Positions 20,990 to 63,486 of a DNA stretch of 64,000 nucleotides are shown one piece after another (the first letter of the stretch is position 1; each line of letters starts with the position of its first letter). Source of the DNA: Bifidobacterium miconisargentati. GTDB taxonomy: Bacteria > Actinomycetota > Actinomycetes > Actinomycetales > Bifidobacteriaceae. The notes under the pieces were generated by a model that was not told the origin of the DNA, did not search any database, and saw only the letters and a list, made by a program, of their open reading frames with translations. The translations under genes were made by a program, and so were the position numbers. The stretch lies in the NCBI RefSeq assembly GCF_019331675.1, contig NZ_JAHBBJ010000006.1, positions 62,001-126,000 on the forward strand, in the 5' to 3' direction.

Positions 20990-23900
20990 GCCGCCTCCGT
21001 CCTCGAAACCAACCGAATTATTAGAACAGATGTTCTACCCCAGAGTGGACATTTGTTCGATTCCATCAGGCCGGGAAACGCCATCCCCGCAGGCAACTCG
21101 CCGCATGGGGATGAAAAGCACGGCGCGCAGGTCCGAGACGAACGATTACTTGAACAGACAGGAACGGCCGGGTGATGGGGCCGGACTGAATCAACTATCA
21201 GTTCGGTCGCATCATCCGGCCGTTACGGTTACGGGAACCGCCTGTTACCGTGAGTGGTGGCTCCTTGCCGTTTTGTTCACCGCGGTATGGCGACGCACGA
21301 CGAACATAGCCAGGCCGCACGCCAGTGCGAGCACCGTCACCACCGCGGCAGCGGTCACGCTGGAGCCGGTGACGGACAGCGTCGGCTTCTGCGGCTTGTC
21401 AGGCTGGGTCGGCGTCGTGGGCTGACCCGGCGTACCGGGGGTGTCGGGCTTGCCGGGCTGGTTTGGCTGTTCGGGTTGGTTCGGAGTGTCCGGCGTGGTG
21501 GGCTGATCCGGCTTGTCAGGTTTGTCGGGTTTTACCGTGTTGTCGAATGCGATGGAATCGACTGTGTCCCCGTTCTTGTCGAATACCGTATAGGTAACGT
21601 TGAGTCTGTTCGAAACCTTGGACACGGCGACCTTGACGGTGTACACGGCATCGTCATAGGTGACGGTCGAATCCGTGCCCTTTACCTCGGTGATCTCGTA
21701 CTCGAAGTCGGCCGAATCCTTGCCGTTCAGATCGGTCTCCCGGTATGCGATGGGTCCGAACGAGAACGAACCATCGGCCTTGTTGCTCACGGTCTTATCC
21801 ACGGGAAGCGGAGCGGTCGTAGGGTTCTTGGCCTTGATTGTGAACGAGAATTCGCCTGCCTGCAGGTCACGTCCCCGAAGAGACTTGGTGCCGGGGATGG
21901 TGATATCCGTGGAAGGGGTGTCAGGCTTGTCCGGCGGGGTGACGGGCGGGCCTGGAGGTGTGATCGTGTTCGTGAACGCGACCGACTGCTTTTCCTGTCC
22001 ATCGACGGTAATCGAATACTCGGCCTTGAGCGAGCCATCCTGCTGTTTGCTCAGCGTGACTTTGACGTCGTACACGGTGTCGTCGTAGATGACGGTCGAA
22101 TCCGTACCCTTGACCTCAGTGATCTCGTACTCGAAGTCGGCCGAATCCCTGCCGTTCAGGTCGGATTCCTTGTAGGTGATGGGTCCGAACGAGAACGAGT
22201 CGTCAGCCTTGTTGGTGACAATCGTGTCCGTGGGCAATGGCGCGGTCGACGGGTTCTTGGCCTTGATTTGGAACCGGAATTGACCCGCAGTCAAGGTACC
22301 GCCGTTCAGCGTCTTGGTTCCCGGGATGGTCAGCGTCGTGTCCGTGGGCTTCTTGGCCTTGTTGGTGACGGTCATGGTCCAATGGTTTGCGTCGGTTTCG
22401 TCCTTTTGGAATTCGCCAACGTTGGACTCGTATTCGTCGCCGACCTCGACGACCTGATACTTCAGGCCGTTCAGCGTATCCTCCGCGGGCAGCCCGGTGA
22501 ACGTGTGCGTCCAATTGCCCGTCTCGTCGAGGGTCGCCTCGTCAATCACCTTGTCAATCGTCTGACCGTTCAAAGTGCCCGTGACCTTGAGCTGGACCTT
22601 AATGGCCTTCCTGTCAGCCTCGGCGACACTGGAATCCCACTTCTTGTTGACGGTGATGGAGATCTCCTGTGCGTCGGGTTTGCCGATGGTGATGGTGGAA
22701 TTGGACGCGATGCCGCCGCCCAGCATGGCCTTGTTGCCACTGACGACGATCTTGGCCAGTGCCTTGGAAAGCTCCTGCGCGTCGGACGTGGTGACGTTCT
22801 TCAACGCAAGCGGATCGGTGTTGCCGGTGACTGTCTGCTCATCATTCGCATCAGACGTGGAGTCGTAGCGTGCGACGGTGCCGTCTGCTACCGGGTCAGG
22901 GCCTCCCGCGTCCGTGTTCTTGATGGTGCCTCCGTCTGTGTACCAGTGGTTGACTCCACCGCCGAGCATACGGTCGGACAGTGTCACCTTATTGGCGTCG
23001 GGACGCGGGTGCGCGACGAAATCATCACCGGCCGCAGAGGAAGCCTCGATGTGCGTGTCTGCGTCGCCGGGCGCGCTGTTGCCGTAAACGGCACCACCCT
23101 CGGTCACATATGTGTTGCCGGCTCCCGTGGGGCACAGCCAGATGCCACCACCGAGGTTGGATGCGGTGTTGCCGGTGACCAGGAGATTATGGAACTCGTT
23201 ATGGGCGTTGGGATTGCCGGAGCCGACGCTGCTGCGCCCGTCATCGGTATAGATGCCGCCGCCCATGCCGTCGGATTCGTTGTTCGTGATCTTACCGGCG
23301 TTAATGGTGACCGGGTTATGCGTGCCGGCGCCGATACCGCCACCGTGTGCGAGAGCGCCGTGGACTTTGTTACCGTCGACGGTTCCGTTGTTCATGGTGA
23401 AGTAAGCGGGATTGCCCAGGCCCCATATGCCAATGCCGCCACCGTTGGCCGTAGCTTGCTGAACTTTAAGCGTATTGCCGGAAACAACGCCGCCGTTCAT
23501 AGTGAAATCGACGGGGCCACGGGCTCCCAATATGGCGATGCCGCCGCCGAGCATCATGCCGCCTTCACCCGCGGGCCTGCCACTGTCGTCAACGGTGTTT
23601 CCGCTAATGGTGCCGCCATTCATGATCGCAGTAATTTTGGATACACCACCGAGGAGCTGGAGCCCACCGCCACCGATGCCGGTAGGGCTGTTCATACTGT
23701 TGTTCGTGATGCTGCCACCGTTCATGGTGAACGTGCCACCGTACACCGTGACAGCGCTGCCGACATCACTGTCCCTACTGGCGGTCGAGGCATGGTAGTC
23801 GCTCACCTCGCCGGATTGGATGGTGAGCGACCCTTCCGAGTAGACAATCGGGTATTTGTGGGCGACGGTTTCGCCCCCGCCGTCGAGAGTCGGACCGTCG

Positions 23901-24198
23901 AGGGTCAGGTCGCCCGTGTCGGTGACACGGAGTCCGGCTTTCTCGCCGAAGGTGAGCTTGCCCGTTCCGGTCAGGCTGATCTTGGACTTGACCGGGATGC
24001 GTTTGCTTATGGCGATGTCCCCGTCGACCTCGATGGTGACGCCGTCGCCTGCGGCGGCGTTGATGGCGTCGACGAGTCCTTGCTCGTCACTGACCTTGAC
24101 CGTAGTCGCCTGAGCGACGTCAGGCTGTGCGTCCTCGGCCATTGCCGTGGACGTGCACATGGATATCATGGTGGCGACCGCGGCAATCAGCGGGCGGA

Positions 24199-25534
24199 TT
24201 CTAGTGGTGGTTGCAACACCTGTGTTGCTGTTTGATTTGGTGGTGTGATCGTATCATGCGGCGTTAATCAGGTCGAGGATGGCCTCGGAGGGTTTCCGGA
24301 ACCCGAGCGTCTTGCGCGGCCGGTCGTTCATCTCCTCCGCGACCGCGTCCAGGTACGCCTGTGAATACCCGCCCAGGTCGGTGCCCTTCGGGAAGTACTG
24401 CCTGAGCAGCCCGTTGGTGTTCTCGTTCGTGCCGCGCTGCCACGGGGAGTGCGGGTCGCAGAAGTACACGTCCATGTCCAGGGCGGTCGAGATGCGCTTG
24501 TGGAGCGCGAGCTCGGAGCCCTGGTCCCACGTCAGCGAGTTGCGCAGGTGCTTCGGGAGACGGCCCATCTGGTCGATGACGGCCTGCTGGACGTGTTCCG
24601 CGTCGTGACCGTCCGGAAGGTGCAGGAGGATCAGGAACCGGGTGGAGCGCTCCACGAGCGTGCCGATCGCGCTGCGGTTGTTCGCGCCCATGATCAGGTC
24701 GCCCTCCCAATGGCCGGGCACGGCGCGGTCCTCCACCTCGGGCGGCCGTTCCGAGATCATGACCATCGGCTCGCGGAACCTCGGACGGCGTCCGTCGCCG
24801 TCGTTCCTCGCGCGTCGGGCGGTCCGGCCGGAGCGAAGCGCCCTGGAGACCTCCCTCCTGAGCTCTCCTTTGGCCTGGACGTAGATGGCCTGGTAGATCG
24901 TCTCCGTGCAAACGTGCATGTCCCCATTATCGGGGAAGTCCCGTCTGAGCATGCCGCCGATCTGCTCGGGGCTCCAATGCGCCCTCAACCCGTCGCGGAT
25001 GTAGTCGAGCAGCCCCGGCACCGCGTGCACCTTCGCGGTCTTCGGCCGTCCGAGCCGGTCCGCGCTCATCCGCTGCGCCCGGTACGGCTCGTACGCGCCG
25101 GTGACCGGGTTCGTGTTCCGGGCGATCTCACGGCTGATGGTGGACGGCTCGCGTCCGAGCAGGCGGGCGATCCCGCGGATCGAGTCGCCGGCGAGCCTCC
25201 GGTCGGCGATGCTCATGCGCTCGTCCTGGCTCAGATACCTGGGATGAATCTTCTTCGGCCTGCCCATGGCGGAACGATACCAGTCGACCGAGGCTTTCTC
25301 GTTCCTGCCCGTGGCGCGGGTCCTGCCGTTCCTCCACACCTTGCCCGTGCGTTTGGAGACGCCGACCGCCTTCGCGGCCTGCGTGAAGTTCAAACCCGAG
25401 TCGAGGTATTCGACGTAGCGTTCCCGCCTCGCCTCGCACATAAGACCCCGACTCGCGTACTCCACGCCCTCGAAAACCCACCTGCCCATACATGACTCCC
25501 GCCACCCGGCCAAGCGTTGCAACGATCACTAGAA
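24199..25534 (-). mobile_element. IS30-family insertion sequence
   Basis: 1336 bp bounded by imperfect 19-bp inverted repeats: TTCTAGTGGTGGTTGCAAC at 24199-24217 and, read inward from the right, TTCTAGTGATCGTTGCAAC (25534-25516). It holds one transposase gene filling the element. No obvious 2-3 bp target duplication is visible (GGA on the left, CCC on the right), which may mean later base change or an adjacent deletion. It sits in the signal-peptide codons of the surface protein gene, in the same orientation as that gene. Confidence 0.9.
24254..25486 (-). CDS. IS30-family transposase
   Basis: 410 residues from MGRWVFEGVEYASRGLM at 25486; the frame is open 12 codons further. An N-terminal helix-turn-helix (NFTQAAKAVGVSKRTGKVWR) and a second IS30-type HTH (YLSQDERMSIADRRLAGDSI) precede the DDE catalytic core: VPGHWEGDLIMG (first Asp), SLTWDQGSEL (second Asp) and QRGTNENTNGLLRQYFP (Glu). 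All three acidic residues are present and the frame is intact, so the element looks active. It catalyses transposition through a circular intermediate in this family. Confidence 0.95.
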   Translation of the reverse strand, partial: GRWVFEGVEYASRGLMCEARRERYVEYLDSGLNFTQAAKAVGVSKRTGKVWRNGRTRATGRNEKASVDWYRSAMGRPKKIHPRYLSQDERMSIADRRLAGDSIRGIARLLGREPSTISREIARNTNPVTGAYEPYRAQRMSADRLGRPKTAKVHAVPGLLDYIRDGLRAHWSPEQIGGMLRRDFPDNGDMHVCTETIYQAIYVQAKGELRREVSRALRSGRTARRARNDGDGRRPRFREPMVMISERPPEVEDRAVPGHWEGDLIMGANNRSAIGTLVERSTRFLILLHLPDGHDAEHVQQAVIDQMGRLPKHLRNSLTWDQGSELALHKRISTALDMDVYFCDPHSPWQRGTNENTNGLLRQYFPKGTDLGGYSQAYLDAVAEEMNDRPRKTLGFRKPSEAILDLINAA

Positions 25535-25553
25535 CCCGCCGCGCCGCAACTCG

Positions 25554-25561
25554 CCCCCCCC
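25554..25561 (-). repeat. Poly-G8 tract in surface-protein signal peptide codons
   Basis: Eight consecutive G on the coding strand within AGG GGG GGG CGA, the seventh to tenth codons of the interrupted surface protein. Slippage by one base would shift the frame and switch the protein off. G tracts at this position are known from bifidobacterial sortase-pilus genes. Confidence 0.7.
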
Positions 25562-25885
25562 TGGATGGCAGCGTTAACATTTCCCATTCCTTCTCTCCCA
25601 AGAATCCGTCTTGGGAACCGCTACAAAGAGGGCCACAGTGAACCTCTTCAGCTGCGATGGTACTCGCCGTCACCGTAATCATCAACGACCACGCAGACAC
25701 TATTCGACATTTCGTCAGTACGGGAAGCAGACGACATCCACAGCCCCCGACTCACCGTCATGCCCCCGACCCGCCACGGTCGCCACACCCACGAACCAAT
25801 CTCGTTTTCCGGTAGATATGCACCGACCTTTCGAATGCCTGCCTATGTTGCAGACATCAGCAACCACAGCAGGAAGGGACCGGCC

Positions 25886-28849: not shown

Positions 28850-30085
28850 ATGGACATGGAATCGACCGGGAGCGAGAAGGACCGCCAGGAAATAGCCGAG
28901 CGATTTCTGGGTCAGGCGAGGTTGGATCGCTATCGTCGTGAGTTGCCGGACTTGGAGAAAGCGCTGGCGCTGCACTCCTGGAATCAGGAATACGCGGGAG
29001 CATTGCACGTCATCCTTAGCTACGCGGAGATCGCGTTGCGCAACAGCATCGATCGCGCCCTGTCCCAGCTCAGCGCGTCCGAACTCGGCACGACGCATTG
29101 GACCGGAGTGGATTCCTATCGTTACAACGGGGAAAAGAAGCCGTCCGAACGGATGCGTCTCCCCTCGGCAATCAGTCCTCTGATTCGCACTGATGTCTTC
29201 AAGGCCCACCAACATGCGCAGGAAGCCTCGCTGGAGCGCATCATTAGACGCAAAAGTCCCAGAACGGATCGGGGATACGGCCATCAGGACGTGCTGTCCC
29301 AATTGATGTTCGGCACTTGGTGCCGACTGGTCGGAGAACCGTATACCTCGCGTAGGACCGAGCGAACACAGAGACTGTGGACGAGCGTGTTGCATGAGGC
29401 TTTCCCGCAGGTTTCTTCCGGCGAAGACGGCCGCATCCAGATCGCCCGGAAGCTGATGCAATTGCGCGAAATCAGGAACCGCGAGGCCCATCACGAGAAC
29501 CTGCTGTACGTGGATCCGGAAAACGTCATCGACGCGGTGATGTCGCTGCTTGCCTCCATCGACCCGCGGTATACGCACGGCTGGGTGAACCCGGACATCG
29601 TCCGCCAGGTCTCCTACCGGGATCCGCGCCGTAACGAGCCCATCCGCGCCGCCGCGTTCAAACTGACGGGACTGGACGCCCGCGACGGGCATCTCAACGC
29701 GCTCGAAGTGCTGAAAGAGCTGGTCCGATACTCGGACGACCATAACGGAAGGGTGCTGTTCTGCAATTCCGTACGAGTACGCAACCAGTATTTCGGCAGA
29801 CTCCGCGAAATCGTGCTGTATGCCGATAACGACCATATCGCGGTCGGCGTTATAGCCGCTCAAGGACTGATCAAGGAAAACACCAGCCCCGATGGAAAGG
29901 CACCGGGATATCGATGTCCTGACGTTTTCGCTCAGTCAGGGTCATGCTCAGGCTCCCGATGGTATGCCATCAACAACCTGAGCATGACCAGCAGATCCGC
30001 CGATAGCTTCAGGATGCTGGAACGCGACAAAACCCTTCGTGAAGCATTCGAATCGACACGGGCGAATTTCGTCTATCTCAAGTAG
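28850..30085 (+). CDS. Abi-like HEPN protein with unusual C-terminal domain
   Basis: 411 residues if ATG 28850 is used; ATG 28856 is equally possible, and the frame is open to 28568 across the remnant and hairpin, which argues against the longer form. No clear ribosome binding site precedes it, so translation may be weak or leaderless. The N-terminal 250 residues match Abi-like proteins (LEKALALHSWNQEYAGALHV, then SYAEIALRNSIDRAL) and contain LREIRNREAHHENL near residues 207-220, with the R-x4-H signature of HEPN RNases. The last 130 residues (from about FKLTGLDARDGHL) are not part of the usual Abi fold and I do not recognise them. Predicted to be a growth-arresting RNase in phage defence; control by the nearby WYL protein is inferred. 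Confidence 0.75.
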   Translation: MDMESTGSEKDRQEIAERFLGQARLDRYRRELPDLEKALALHSWNQEYAGALHVILSYAEIALRNSIDRALSQLSASELGTTHWTGVDSYRYNGEKKPSERMRLPSAISPLIRTDVFKAHQHAQEASLERIIRRKSPRTDRGYGHQDVLSQLMFGTWCRLVGEPYTSRRTERTQRLWTSVLHEAFPQVSSGEDGRIQIARKLMQLREIRNREAHHENLLYVDPENVIDAVMSLLASIDPRYTHGWVNPDIVRQVSYRDPRRNEPIRAAAFKLTGLDARDGHLNALEVLKELVRYSDDHNGRVLFCNSVRVRNQYFGRLREIVLYADNDHIAVGVIAAQGLIKENTSPDGKAPGYRCPDVFAQSGSCSGSRWYAINNLSMTSRSADSFRMLERDKTLREAFESTRANFVYLK

Positions 30086-30463
30086 ACGGGCGGATTGTCC
30101 GGAGATAACTTGATGCAGGGGAAGCGACTGACACCAACGACAACGATGACAGCAGACCACAATAAGGGACCGGCGTCGACTGGAACGACTTCCACACCCA
30201 CATCACATGGAACCAAACCGATTAGAAACCAGAGCCTAAAACACCACGTTTAGTTCCTATAACCCAGGATCGGAACCTACGCTAGCACCATACGCGTGCG
30301 TTCCCCAGCACCAATCGCGAAACATACCAGAAAAAGAGTCGCCCTCACACCGGTGATCAGCGCGCGCCCGCTCATCTCGGGGATAATGTCGTTACTGTTG
30401 AAGCATGCAGCGCGATGCATCACAGTGGTGCAAATAGGGAATATGCCAGACAGAGGAGGCGCC
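30086..30463. other. Intergenic stretch without a supported gene
   Basis: About 380 bases of mixed composition after the HEPN gene. Short open frames have no ribosome binding site. I see no repeat, RNA gene or terminator that I can defend. Confidence 0.4.
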
Positions 30464-30697
30464 ATGACGTTTATTGCCAAGAACGGCCGCGTAGTCACCG
30501 ACGACATGCTGGACCGGTGGGCGGAGGACGCCGACAATGGCGAGTTCGGAGGCGTTCCCGGTTCCGTACATCCCGGACCGGTTGTCCCGGTCTCCCAACG
30601 CGACAAATCGCCGTTCGTTCTGCCAACCGATACCGTGCTGCGGTCGGATGCCGATTTCGATGCGTTCGAGCGTGAGATTCTGGGAGACGACAAGTAG
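30464..30697 (+). CDS. Small acidic hypothetical protein
   Basis: 77 residues, ATG at 30464 behind GAGGAGGCGCC; an ATG at 30443 (MPDRGG) is in frame but lies too close to any ribosome site. The product begins MTFIAKNGRVVTDDMLDRWA and ends FDAFEREILGDDK, an acidic helical tail reminiscent of antitoxin C-termini. No toxin gene follows: the next 110 bases lead to a terminator. It may be an orphan antitoxin. Confidence 0.6.
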   Translation: MTFIAKNGRVVTDDMLDRWAEDADNGEFGGVPGSVHPGPVVPVSQRDKSPFVLPTDTVLRSDADFDAFEREILGDDK

Positions 30698-30807
30698 CAC
30701 CACGATCGCTATCTATGCAAACGGGCCTAGCAGAGTGCAACAATCAGGAATTGATCTCAGATCCATTGAGTCTGAACTGTCCAAACCCCGAACCACCAAA
30801 ACGGAAA

Positions 30808-30832
30808 GGGCCCGGAACAAGGTTCCGGGCCC
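30808..30832 (+). terminator. Hairpin terminator
   Basis: GGGCCCGGAAC at 30808-30818 and its exact complement at 30822-30832, with a 3-base loop, 111 bases after the small acidic protein gene. Confidence 0.75.
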
Positions 30833-31248
30833 CACAAAGAGAAGAGAGAAGAAGATTCAGTTATCCGGCCTTGCGGCCTGCATCTATATAACCGCGGCTA
30901 CTTCAATAGGACATGAGCAGATGCTGGGAATTCCTTGGGAATAGTTCCCTGACATGGTCCGGCCATCAGGAACGAATCTCGAATCGCTTCCGAATCTGTT
31001 CCGCTGTTCTACATGATGCCCGGGTATCGCATCCGGTTATATAGACGACCTGCACGGGTACTGGCTGTATATGACCGATGGATTCAGGCATGCCGCCGAA
31101 CACGACAGATTCTCATGCGCCCGAGGTGACGATGGCCAAGTCGAAACCGGACGCGTGCATCACGTACGTGCTATGTCTCAGCAGACATAACAACCCCAAT
31201 TCAATACGAACAAATGCGTAGCCCGGCTATTGGCCCGTCGTCCCACCA

Positions 31249-31287
31249 ATCTCACGAAAATAACTCGTTCCACAGCCATTAGTCCAA
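31249..31287. repeat. Imperfect direct repeat, copy 1
   Basis: ACCAATCTC, then AATAACTCGTTCCACA and CCATTAG in the same order and spacing as at 32161-32197; about 30 of the first 38 positions agree, with further similarity (CAGACAA followed by CTAGTT) about 50 bases on in both copies. The two copies bracket the decayed ATPase gene. Confidence 0.6.
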
Positions 31288-31442
31288 GGCCACAGACTTT
31301 CAGCAACCCCATTAACATCGGGATAGACGCAGACAATCTCTAGTTCCGACTCGTCAAAAACCGCGGAGACTCTCACTCGCGAAACGGTCAATCACCGCTC
31401 CATCATGCACCGCCGTACGCACTTTGCTTTCTACAGATGGAT

Positions 31443-31540
31443 TTCTATTGAAAATCATCGACATATATGACAAAAACTTCAATAGAATCTTTCTCTATTG
31501 AATATGAATGGTAAATATGATGCTCTTCTTCAATAGAGAA
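31443..31540. promoter_or_regulatory. Two tandem inverted-repeat pairs before the ATPase remnant
   Basis: TTCTATTGAA (31443-31452) pairs with TTCAATAGAA (31478-31487), and TTCTCTATTGAA (31491-31502) pairs with TTCAATAGAGAA (31529-31540). Loops are 25 and 26 bases. Four copies of the same 9-base core in alternating orientation, ending 30 bases before the ATPase start codon, look like an operator array. Confidence 0.6.
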
Positions 31541-31569
31541 TGCCACGGCCTCATCCAACAGAAGTACCC

Positions 31570-31868
31570 ATGCTAATCACTAGGGACAAGTATCTGAACG
31601 AGCTCACCGACCGCATCGGCAATGGCATGGTAAGGACGGCCCCGAGGCACGCTGTGGCAAGATCTTCCCGTCGTTTGAGCTGTTCGAGGACCGGTTGCGA
31701 GTCCAGGGAGTAGATGACTGTCACATGGCCTCCCTGCTCGGCATCGACGACAGCTTCAAGAAGATCATCCTCGTCCGGGACATCGTCAAACCGACTCGCG
31801 ACGACCATGGCATCCTGACCATGAGCGTCTACGACTTCCTCCTAGACCCCCATAGCCTGGAGGCGTAA
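31570..31868 (+). pseudogene. AAA ATPase (AAA_14/DUF4143-like), internally deleted
   Basis: Two ends of one gene joined out of frame. The start, MLITRDKYLNELTDRIGNGM (31570-31629), matches the N-terminus of AAA_14/DUF4143 ATPases just before their Walker A loop. A different frame from about 31655 to the TAA at 31866-31868 encodes IFPSFELFEDRLRV and, at the very end, DFLLDPHSLEA, the usual C-terminal ending of that family (a DFLL motif followed by a short tail). About 1.1 kb including the ATP-binding core is missing. The family assignment rests on the two short ends. Confidence 0.6.
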
Positions 31869-32028
31869 GCCATCAGTCATCATCGATGCCGGCAGGAAGC
31901 ATCCCACGGGGGCAATGCCTTGCGTTCAGGATCCACACGGCCGGCAGAAGGCTTCAAGAGCGCCTCCAAGTACCATCGCGCCGTCCGACACCGGTTCCTT
32001 CGAAATCATCATCCCTTCCAGCACCCGT

Positions 32029-32048
32029 TGGGATATCGTCCGATATCC
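32029..32048. repeat. 20-bp palindrome
   Basis: GGGATATCG, TC, CGATATCCC: perfect 9-bp arms around 2 bases. It lies in noncoding DNA between the ATPase remnant and the conjugation genes and could be an operator that has lost its gene. Confidence 0.5.
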
Positions 32049-32160
32049 CAACGGTCAAACAAGTCCGTCCGACTCCGCGCGGGGTACAGATGAACCTCTC
32101 GATTCCCGCACATCCCTCACCACACAGCTCTCTTACGACGCCGCATCGGTCCGTCGATCA

Positions 32161-32197
32161 ACCAATCTCGGGGAATAACTCGTTCCACAACCATTAG
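32161..32197. repeat. Imperfect direct repeat, copy 2
   Basis: Matches 31249-31287 in sequence and order: ACCAATCTC, AATAACTCGTTCCACA, CCATTAG. Located 55 bases from the 3' end of the conjugation block. Confidence 0.6.
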
Positions 32198-32252
32198 ATC
32201 AGGATCTCCGCTTCGGCGGACCCATCAATAACAGAACGGACTCAGACAACAC

Positions 32253-32669
32253 CTAGTTGCAGTGAGCGTCGAGTGACTGCCCGTACCGCTCCTCCTCGCG
32301 CCGTATTTTCCGTTCCTTGAACCATTCGACGATGCGTATGATCGCCGCCAGAACGAGCGCCAAAGCCCCGGCCTCAGCCGAACGGATTGCCAACGCAGAC
32401 GTGATCATCATGCCGGCCAACACCGCGTATCCGCTTGGATCGTAAGTGATGCCTTCCAGCACCATGACCAGCATCCAGGTGACCAATGCCCACAGCATCG
32501 CATGCGCAAGCAATCCCAATCCGATGATCATCACGGTCCAGGAATCTCTTCTATGGGGCACCGGCTCCCCACACGGAATCACCGACGCAAGCGCGGCGGC
32601 GTTCGAAGTATCATCCGGCTGCACCGCATACGCCGGAACTCCCTCGTATATCATCTCGTCGCGGTTCAT
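32253..32669 (-). CDS. Two-helix membrane protein of the conjugation block
   Basis: 138 residues from ATG at 32669 behind GGAAAGGATGGAAGCCT; it overlaps the stop of the upstream gene by 4 bp. Two transmembrane segments are likely (WTVMIIGLGLLAHAMLWALV, near 45-75, and one near 85-115), with a charged C-terminal tail (EWFKERKIRREEERYG). It is the last gene of the minus-strand mating-channel operon, after CHAP hydrolase and a coiled-coil membrane protein. No named family is recognised; position suggests a transfer accessory protein. Confidence 0.7.
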   Translation of the reverse strand: MNRDEMIYEGVPAYAVQPDDTSNAAALASVIPCGEPVPHRRDSWTVMIIGLGLLAHAMLWALVTWMLVMVLEGITYDPSGYAVLAGMMITSALAIRSAEAGALALVLAAIIRIVEWFKERKIRREEERYGQSLDAHCN

Positions 32670-33664
32670 AGGCTTCCATCCTTTCCCGGCAGACGTTGCG
32701 TGGTCGACTCCCCCGGAACCCGCCATGTCGGTCCCGACGGCCGTTGTGGAACAACCGGCGCATATTGCGGTTGCGAAAGCCCTGATGACTGAGGCGCCGG
32801 GTCGGCTGATTCAGATTGTTCCGCCCGATCTTGCTGTTCCCGCGCCTCATCACGTTGCCGCTCTACGACATCGGCAAGCTCTTTGAGATGGCTTGCGGCT
32901 TCGGCGGCCGACTCGAGATTCGCACGGGCTATTGTGACCTGCCGCCATTGCGTCACGAGCTGGTTGAGTTCGTCATGCTCTCTGGAGTCCGGAGCATCAG
33001 TCAGCAAATCACCTCGCTCGGCCGTCTGCCGTATCGATTCCGCAATCTTCTCCGCCTCGGCATCCAACGCCGCATGAAAGTCCTCTTCGACCTGCACCGT
33101 CAGCGTTTCCAGTTGTTCAACATCGCACGGCACCGTCGCGGACGTTTTGGCCTGTTCCAGTGGCCCGACCTCGACCTTCCCGGCGACCGGACTCGAGGCG
33201 ATTCGCGCAAGCAGGTCCTCCGCGCATGACACGGCATGGTCCCACCGCAACCGATTCTGATCATCAGCCGATGCAACGGATTCCGCTATCCGTGCGTCGT
33301 GACGCTCATCAGAAAGAAGCGACCGAACCACGAGATAGGCCCCACCGCCTGCCGCGAACGCACCCAACACGGCCATGCAGGCCATGGCCTTGCCTCTGTC
33401 CTTCAGCACAGCCGGCACTGCAAGCCGAATACAACCATGACGATGACGGGAACGTGTCTTCCGAGCATCCCGTGCGGTGTCTTCCATCGTTGCGGTGTCA
33501 TCGCGATTGGCCGGCGGACCCAGATTCATATGGGCTTGTGGCTCGATCCGCGAGGAAGGCTCCTCCGCACCCCTCACGCCGGGGTCGCCGGACACCGGCC
33601 CAAGATTGATCGCCCCATCCGTCCGGAGGCTCCTGTCTTCGTTCCTTCGATGGTTCCACCGCAT
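32666..33664 (-). CDS. Single-pass coiled-coil membrane protein of the conjugation block
   Basis: 332 residues, ATG at 33664 behind a strong GGAAGGAGGTGACGTG; the frame is open 23 codons further. The cytoplasmic N-terminus is polar, one transmembrane helix lies near residues 94-113 (MACMAVLGAFAAGGGAYLVV), and the outer part is helical with coiled-coil character (AEKIAESIRQTAERGDLL, then ERQRDEAREQQDRAEQSE), ending in a Pro/Ser-rich tail. This layout resembles structural proteins of Gram-positive type IV secretion channels, but no specific family is identified. Confidence 0.7.
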   Translation of the reverse strand: MRWNHRRNEDRSLRTDGAINLGPVSGDPGVRGAEEPSSRIEPQAHMNLGPPANRDDTATMEDTARDARKTRSRHRHGCIRLAVPAVLKDRGKAMACMAVLGAFAAGGGAYLVVRSLLSDERHDARIAESVASADDQNRLRWDHAVSCAEDLLARIASSPVAGKVEVGPLEQAKTSATVPCDVEQLETLTVQVEEDFHAALDAEAEKIAESIRQTAERGDLLTDAPDSREHDELNQLVTQWRQVTIARANLESAAEAASHLKELADVVERQRDEAREQQDRAEQSESADPAPQSSGLSQPQYAPVVPQRPSGPTWRVPGESTTQRLPGKDGSL

Positions 33665-61807: not shown

Positions 61808-63486
61808 ACAGGCTCCTGCGTCTCCTCATGCCGGCCACGCTGGCCGTACTGCTGTTCTGGCTTGCCAATCGGATCTCGATGCAGGTACGGTCCAATCTTT
61901 CCGCGGGCCTCGGCCTGGCCCGTGCCATCGACGGCATGTTCGATGGCATCCTCACGGATCCCCTGCGACTGTCGTTGGACCGGACTGACTTGCTCGCGGG
62001 CGTTGCCTCGATCCTGGCCGCGGGACTGGCGCTGTTGTACCGCTGGTCGATGCGGCGAGACCTGCGCGAAGGCGAGGAACACGGGTCGGCTCGCTGGGGA
62101 ACTCCGGCCGACATCAAGCCGTTCTTTCAGGATGGCCGCCGGAACCTGCTGATGACGGCCACGGAATCATTGGGGTTGGATGGCAGGATCACGCAACGCA
62201 ACCTGAACGTGCTGGTGATCGGATCATCGGGCTCGGGCAAAACCCGTCGATATGTGCTGCCGAACCTGCGGCAGACGAACATGTCGTATGCGGTCACCGA
62301 CCCGAAGGGCGAGATCCGCGCCGCGGTGGGTAGCACGCTGCAAGGCAGAGGATATGGGATCCGCTGCCTTGATCTCATCGACCTCGACCGGTCCGACCGG
62401 TTCAATCCCATGCGATACATCGACCCGCGCGACCCCGAGGCCGGAATCCTGCGTCTGACGGAGAACATCATCTCGAACACCACGGGGCAGGGTCCGCGCC
62501 ATGATTCCGGCGACGGGTTCTGGGAGCGGGCCGAACGCAATCTGCTGACTGCGTTGACCGCGTGGGTCCGGTTCGCGGAACGCGAGCCCGACCTGACCCA
62601 GGTCATGGACCTGCTGCTGCTCATGGACTCCAGCGAGACGGACGAGACGATGGTCTCGGACGTGGATCTGATGTTCGAGGCGGCGCGAGAACTCGTGGCC
62701 GAATACCGCAAGGCACCCGAACGGCATGACGCCGAATCACGCCAGACACTGGAGGGACTGGACTTCGCAGCCCGCCAGTATCGCAAGTTCATCCAAGGCG
62801 CGGGCGAGACGAAGCGTTCGATCATCACGTCGTTGGGCGTGCGCCTATCACCGTTGGAGGTCGGCAGCGTGCGGCGGCTCCTGTCCGGTGACACCATCCG
62901 ATTGGATGAGATCATGTCGCGTCCGACTGCGGTGTTCCTCTCCCTGCCGGATACCGAGGGAACGTTCTCCGCGCTGGCCGCGATCTTCTACCAGTGCCTG
63001 TTCGAGTCCAACGTGTACCGGGCCGACCATGCCGACGAGGCATCCGGCGCCAAGCGAATGCAATTGCATTGCTTCCTTGACGAGTTCGCCAACATCGGGC
63101 GTATCCCGAACTTCACGCGGCTCATCGCCACCATCCGCAGCCGCGGCATCTCCTGTTCGGTCATCATCCAGAACTACGCTCAGGGCAAGGCCATGTACCG
63201 GGACGATTGGGAGACCATCGTCGGCAACTGTGATTCGATGCTGTTCCTCGGCGGCACGGAAACCAGCACGCTGGAATGGGTGTCCAAACGGCTCGGCTTC
63301 CAGACCATCGACGTCATGGACGACGGCGAAAGCCGCGGGGTCAATGGCACGTACAACATCAGCTGGCGACGCACCAAGCGCGAGCTCATGCAGCCCGACG
63401 AACTCGGCCTGCTGCCCACCGACGAATGCATCTACATCCTCCGAGGCGTCCGTCCGTTCCGCAGCCGCAAAATACCGACAGGATAA
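61804..63486 (+). CDS. virD4: VirD4/TraG-type coupling protein
   Basis: 560 residues, starting in an ATGA overlap. Two N-terminal transmembrane helices (LLMPATLAVLLFWLANRIS, and one near 60-80), then the hexameric ATPase domain: Walker A VIGSSGSGKTRRY (about 139-151), conserved DPKGE, Walker B HCFLDEFANIGRIPN (about 421-435) and NYAQGKAMY. It binds the relaxosome and feeds the strand into the VirB4-powered channel. The ICE right end must lie between its stop and the permease gene at 63788. Confidence 0.93.
   Translation: MNRLLRLLMPATLAVLLFWLANRISMQVRSNLSAGLGLARAIDGMFDGILTDPLRLSLDRTDLLAGVASILAAGLALLYRWSMRRDLREGEEHGSARWGTPADIKPFFQDGRRNLLMTATESLGLDGRITQRNLNVLVIGSSGSGKTRRYVLPNLRQTNMSYAVTDPKGEIRAAVGSTLQGRGYGIRCLDLIDLDRSDRFNPMRYIDPRDPEAGILRLTENIISNTTGQGPRHDSGDGFWERAERNLLTALTAWVRFAEREPDLTQVMDLLLLMDSSETDETMVSDVDLMFEAARELVAEYRKAPERHDAESRQTLEGLDFAARQYRKFIQGAGETKRSIITSLGVRLSPLEVGSVRRLLSGDTIRLDEIMSRPTAVFLSLPDTEGTFSALAAIFYQCLFESNVYRADHADEASGAKRMQLHCFLDEFANIGRIPNFTRLIATIRSRGISCSVIIQNYAQGKAMYRDDWETIVGNCDSMLFLGGTETSTLEWVSKRLGFQTIDVMDDGESRGVNGTYNISWRRTKRELMQPDELGLLPTDECIYILRGVRPFRSRKIPTG

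Follow-up and report, generated by a model that had tools for sequence, protein, structure and literature searches.

When an insertion sequence (IS) sits in the part of a surface gene that encodes the signal peptide, has the gene been switched off reversibly, or has it been broken once and for all? The question is raised by a 64,000-nucleotide (nt) stretch of Bifidobacterium miconisargentati DNA (positions 62,001 to 126,000 of NZ_JAHBBJ010000006.1; hereafter the window), which lies within contig C36 of a draft genome assembly of 2.98 megabases (Mb) in 39 contigs. Here an IS30-family element interrupts a surface gene in its signal peptide, as an earlier note on this DNA had recognized; that note went on to propose an insertional off-switch, with precise excision restoring the protein. 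We hold, with considerable confidence, that the element inserted once, with a 3-base-pair (bp) target duplication, into a pilin-like gene, and that the outcome is a one-way loss of function. The element, its ends, the duplication, a transposase frame that is intact and a gene frame still open across the empty site are all directly observed.

What was interrupted, and by what? The parts of the gene and the element lie in this order along the minus strand:

25588..25594, minus strand: Shine-Dalgarno-like AGAAGGA upstream of the ATG (read by eye)
25541..25580, minus strand: the 5'-most 40 nt of the interrupted gene, with the ATG at 25578-25580 (sequence reading)
24193..25540, minus strand: IS30-family insertion sequence, 1348 bp, corrected boundaries (end conservation and 3-bp duplication)
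24254..25489, minus strand: IS30-family transposase, 411 amino acids, without an internal stop (HTH_38, rve, NF033563)
21245..24192, minus strand: surface-gene remainder, comprising the rest of the signal peptide, FctA, Cna_B and the C-terminal tail (profile matches; tail by eye)

The surface gene, which runs down the minus strand to 21245, is predicted to be pilin-like (FctA/Cna_B): it combines pilin-type domains, namely FctA (102.5 bits, in two stretches), Cna_B and the pilin isopeptide repeat TIGR03786 found by profile search, with a cell-wall sorting-like tail of the form LSVTG-hydrophobic-RR, recognized by eye only. Its ribosome-site-like sequence and ATG do lie on the far side of the element, as the earlier note had said, and past the IS the reading frame is fully open.

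The intruder has the features of an IS30 element throughout. In this family, the last two catalytic residues (DDE) are separated by 33 residues, and the target duplication ranges from 2 to 3 bp. The window transposase, open over 411 codons and intact as first described, scores 301.1 bits against NF033563 (IS30-type transposase; cut-off, 80); its DDE residues, D264, D322 and E356, are invariant in 7/7 aligned transposases, the last two with the 33 residues between them that the family spacing requires; terminal repeats and a short duplication are also present. The nearest named relative is ISBlo4, and an IS30-family transposase is common to the window element and the ISBlo4-like elements of Bifidobacterium. 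Two copies on B. longum plasmids, one of them annotated as ISBlo4 family, are the closest plasmid matches, at 75-76% DNA identity (75% with 89% of the element aligned), and a probable B. callitrichidarum copy shows 96%; the window transposase exceeds its B. callitrichidarum counterpart by 15 residues, at a point where the latter has a gap. With an E-value of at most 0.001, the IS DNA finds matches in 46 of the 112 genus genomes, the element's own among them; many of these matches are short. Unlike ISBlo4-like elements, the IS is a single copy in its own genome, where scoring 40 of 75 candidates gave one full match and a further stretch of 135 bp that is 70% identical, and where a single pair of IS ends is found at up to two mismatches.

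Where exactly does the element end? The earlier note placed its edges at 24199 and 25580 and gave it 19-bp terminal repeats. Comparison with other ends leads to different limits:

24193..24222, plus strand: terminal inverted repeat, transposase-stop end (end comparison)
25511..25540, minus strand: terminal inverted repeat, transposase-start end (end comparison)
24190..24192, plus strand: target-site duplication copy 1, GCG (flank comparison)
25541..25543, plus strand: target-site duplication copy 2, GCG (flank comparison)

The comparison set consists of 89 distinct ends of the TTCTAG type, collected at up to two substitutions with duplicates removed; it includes the window's own two ends, and about 14 of its members, by a count made by eye, come from other genera than Bifidobacterium. 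Outward of TTCTAG, six bases are conserved as GGCGG(A/G), with G in 83, G in 85, C in 77, G in 78 and G in 75 of the 89 ends, then A in 43, G in 35 and T in 11; beyond these six, the commonest base at -7 is found in 32/89, and the maximum from -7 to -20 is 40/89. The conserved bases are IS sequence, and the element therefore spans 24193-25540, 1348 bp. The edge at 24199 falls six bases inside it and the end at 25580 takes in 40 bp of the host gene, the true end being 25540; the terminal repeats are imperfect, some 30 bp long and 83% complementary.

At the corrected boundary, a 3-bp duplication is found in 12 of 24 complete elements, versus about 0.38 expected by chance, and a thirteenth element has a 4-bp match; six loci that repeat the window's copy had been excluded beforehand, and repeats sharing the same flanks were combined. 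With the boundary at 0-5, 7 or 8, none of the 24 elements shows a 3-bp duplication; at 9, 10 and 11, the counts are 1, 2 and 1. The boundaries 24199-25580, with their RR/RP join, are ruled out by the conserved outer bases and the absent 3-bp duplication. Matches of 2 bp do occur at boundaries 2 and 3 (13/24 and 18/24 elements, respectively), but these arise because GG/CC is conserved within the ends; the idea that a palindromic target had been duplicated over 2 bp, with one mismatch, was dropped on these grounds. IS30 itself duplicates 2 bp of its target, according to the available part of one article (PMC9333248). For this group of IS30 elements, as seen in the genomes compared, the ends and the duplication are now fixed. 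The earlier note had mentioned neither the GCG duplication nor the G8 tract discussed below. Among related loci, one IS copy (L029, 1482-2856) has perfect 12-bp inverted flanks instead of a direct duplication, resembling an insertion at the centre of a hairpin, and an inverted pair of IS ends that spans 44 bases, too few to enclose a transposase, is an element remnant (L211; G015 C1:1835480-1835680).

What did the gene look like before the insertion? Once the element and one copy of the duplication are removed, the empty site reads MLTLPSRGGRVAALIAAVATMISMCTSTAMAEDA, in frame, and the restored N-terminus is MLTLPSRGGRVAALIAAVAT. The signal core, judged by the mean Kyte-Doolittle value of the best 12-mer, is VAALIAAVATMI, at 2.62. 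The earlier note had joined MLTLPSRGG to RPLIAAVAT, a string that holds IS codons; this join has the extra IS-end residues RRVRP and a best 12-mer of 2.27. Because the two joins differ by 15 bases, both are in frame: the flanks still meet in frame at the corrected edges, and it is the N-terminus that had to be redrawn. The in-frame join shows only that the ancestor was an intact gene.

And what remains of its expression with the element in place? The likely course of events is that an ISBlo4-like IS30 element with an intact transposase inserted at the charged/hydrophobic junction of the signal peptide; translation from the gene's own start would now end inside the IS, and the remaining gene would lack an export signal, leaving the protein off the cell surface. 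Two features define the reading frames that are left:

25128..25580, minus strand: present-day open reading frame from the gene's own ATG into the IS, 150 amino acids (sequence reading)
24167..24169, minus strand: first ATG, GTG or TTG available in the surface-gene frame while the IS is in place (frame scan)

A start at 24169 would give MISMCTSTAMAED, with a best 12-mer of only 0.82; ahead of the signal core the frame has no ATG, GTG or TTG, which bears out the earlier statement that no remaining start includes a signal peptide. Could the surface gene still be expressed, by restart after the transposase stop, by TGA read-through or from a non-standard start near 24187-24199? The transposase TGA (24254-24256) shares the frame of the gene remainder and is the sole stop between the two, and ATC, CTG and ATT codons do precede the hydrophobic core. 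However, these are the only such codons in frame ahead of 24169, no ATG, GTG or TTG lies between 24253 and 24169 in the surface-gene frame, and a read-through product would put the 411-residue transposase before the signal core. Residual expression of this kind is unlikely, and loss of export while the IS is present is the simplest inference. Signal-peptide loss by insertion is supported because the anatomy and the target duplication both speak for it, and the predicted insertional inactivation of the surface gene is well supported.

Is this loss reversible? Phase variation by precise IS excision is familiar from IS492, IS256 and IS1301, and the present case resembles them in that an IS interrupts a surface-related gene. 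It differs in that the mechanism of IS30 argues against excision: IS30 moves by copy-out-paste-in, and for E. coli IS30 the part of the article at hand states that such precise excision does not occur by transposition (PMC9333248). The same part describes excision and restoration where an IS30 element abuts another IS30 end (PMC9333248), a route that is not evident here because the genome has only one end pair. A reversible off-switch, in which some cells would regain the signal peptide, and with it the surface protein, through precise excision, would be in keeping with the intact transposase, the 3-bp duplication, the in-frame empty site and the uncorrupted gene remainder. Yet the published E. 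coli IS30 mechanism, as far as that excerpt goes, argues against precise excision (PMC9333248), any insertion into an intact gene would leave flanks that join in frame, and no empty site was found in the sequences searched. We regard such a switch as very unlikely. Of the original proposal, the loss of the signal peptide stands, borne out by the anatomy and the duplication; reversal by precise excision lacks such support. An ordinary loss of function, with no reversal expected from the element's own transposition, is most likely.

The comparison of strains that the earlier note had recommended found no uninterrupted gene in the 112 genus genomes or among the proteins listed. By DNA search, 15 of these genomes had a match, only short ones outside the own genome (four candidate stretches scored per genome). 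By protein search, the 120 proteins listed out of 260 reached 37% identity at most, the gene's own aside, and none was an empty-site gene; a surface-protein scan of the genome contigs returned 14 stretches that fit a pattern, none confirmed. The nearest homologue among the matches listed, P0005 of B. oedipodis, appears to be the same as the match in genome G053; the latter is 37% identical and ranks fourth by E-value, with P0005 itself at 36% and another alignment at 40% over residues 15-971. Might unrelated pieces have been joined through an IS copy during assembly? The assembly is a draft in 39 contigs, but the genome has one strong copy and one end pair, identical 3-bp sequences bracket the element, and the two parts of the gene meet in frame to give a typical signal peptide; an artefact of this kind is extremely unlikely.

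Several observations pull away from a single, irreversible insertion. Eleven of the 24 elements have neither a 3- nor a 4-bp duplication, and 7 of the 12 with a 3-bp duplication come from one genome (G044), so that the support extends over six genomes. The present reading frame from the gene's own ATG gains an IS-encoded hydrophobic stretch (best 12-mer, 2.24). The gene remainder is still open, which would mean that the insertion is recent or that the gene is still under selection, and occasional restoration is conceivable. Finally, the excision statement, in the portion of the article available, concerns E. coli IS30 and not the subgroup of the window element (PMC9333248).

If the gene was ever under reversible control, what was the switch? 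Slippage at a homopolymer upstream of the insertion would be a better candidate than the IS:

25554..25561, minus strand: G8 homopolymer in codons 7-9, beginning 19 nt past the A of the ATG and separated from the IS by 13 bases; candidate slippage tract

In the empty-site reading, only 8 and 11 of the tract lengths 7-12 keep the frame, the present G8 being one of the two. Long G runs are rare here: the genome has 13 distinct tracts of at least eight G (22 overlapping matches merged) and 26 runs of at least seven (merged); the window has one G run of at least eight, versus a shuffle average of 3.51. Four genes in the genome have FctA matches above the cut-off (all 13 candidates scored), three of which were also found with TIGR03786. 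In three of the four FctA genes, a homopolymer of 7-9 G or C lies no more than 126 nt from the start: G8 at nt 19 in the window gene, seven C at nt 16 in a paralogue on contig C35 and G9 at nt 117 in a paralogue on contig C36. The expectation per 150-nt segment is about 0.0013 runs, with the segment length picked once the data had been seen. In a probable B. oedipodis, the homologue has a run of 12 C at nt 40, and runs of at least seven are few in that genome as well. These patterns hint at slippage control in the family.

A precedent exists in Bifidobacterium breve, whose sortase-dependent pili (Bbr_0113, Bbr_1889) are controlled by a G-tract slippage switch, according to the part of the study available (PMC9187656). 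As far as that part goes, the systems share a homopolymer close to where a pilin-like gene begins, an export signal at one end with a cell-wall tail at the other, and a frame set by tract length (PMC9187656); the C36 paralogue with G9, in which signal and remainder are out of frame, is like the B. breve loci in this respect too (PMC9187656). In the window gene, the tract precedes the signal core, and the IS now overrides it. Other features tell against slippage as the mode of control. The window tract has 8 bases, versus lengths of 10-12 among those in Table 1 of PMC9187656, and slippage may be slow; the fourth FctA gene, on contig C12 and with the weakest match (28.2 bits), has no run of at least seven in its first 150 nt; and contig C36 has no sortase gene (the 6 sortase matches in the genome are all elsewhere), whereas the published B. 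breve clusters, as described in the same part, have one (PMC9187656). If the runs do slip, the pilus-switch model would extend to pilin-like genes without a neighbouring sortase.

Tract and element might even act together, as a two-layer control in which a fast slippage tract is backed, in part of the population, by a slow IS lock 13 bases downstream. We consider this highly improbable; were it true, the IS would be lost again under host selection, and the clone would keep a silent adhesin reserve. None of the published titles found (titles only) describes an IS in such a homopolymer-tract gene.

G runs also lie near other genes of this genome. The pilin-like paralogue on the same contig as the window (L160; contig C36, about 29000-33460, minus strand) has its G9 just after the signal peptide; in the assembly, a 45-amino-acid signal open reading frame and a 1440-codon remainder lie in different frames, an apparent off state. 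The fourth FctA gene (L244; C12:262000-270000, plus strand), a 1734-codon frame with an LPPTG-type tail, has a G8 that lies about 196 nt ahead of the probable ATG. Two secreted-looking genes have a G13 (L221, contig C26) and a G9 (L223, contig C27), respectively, about 80-90 nt upstream of their likely starts (by eye), and these runs are possible promoter-spacing switches.
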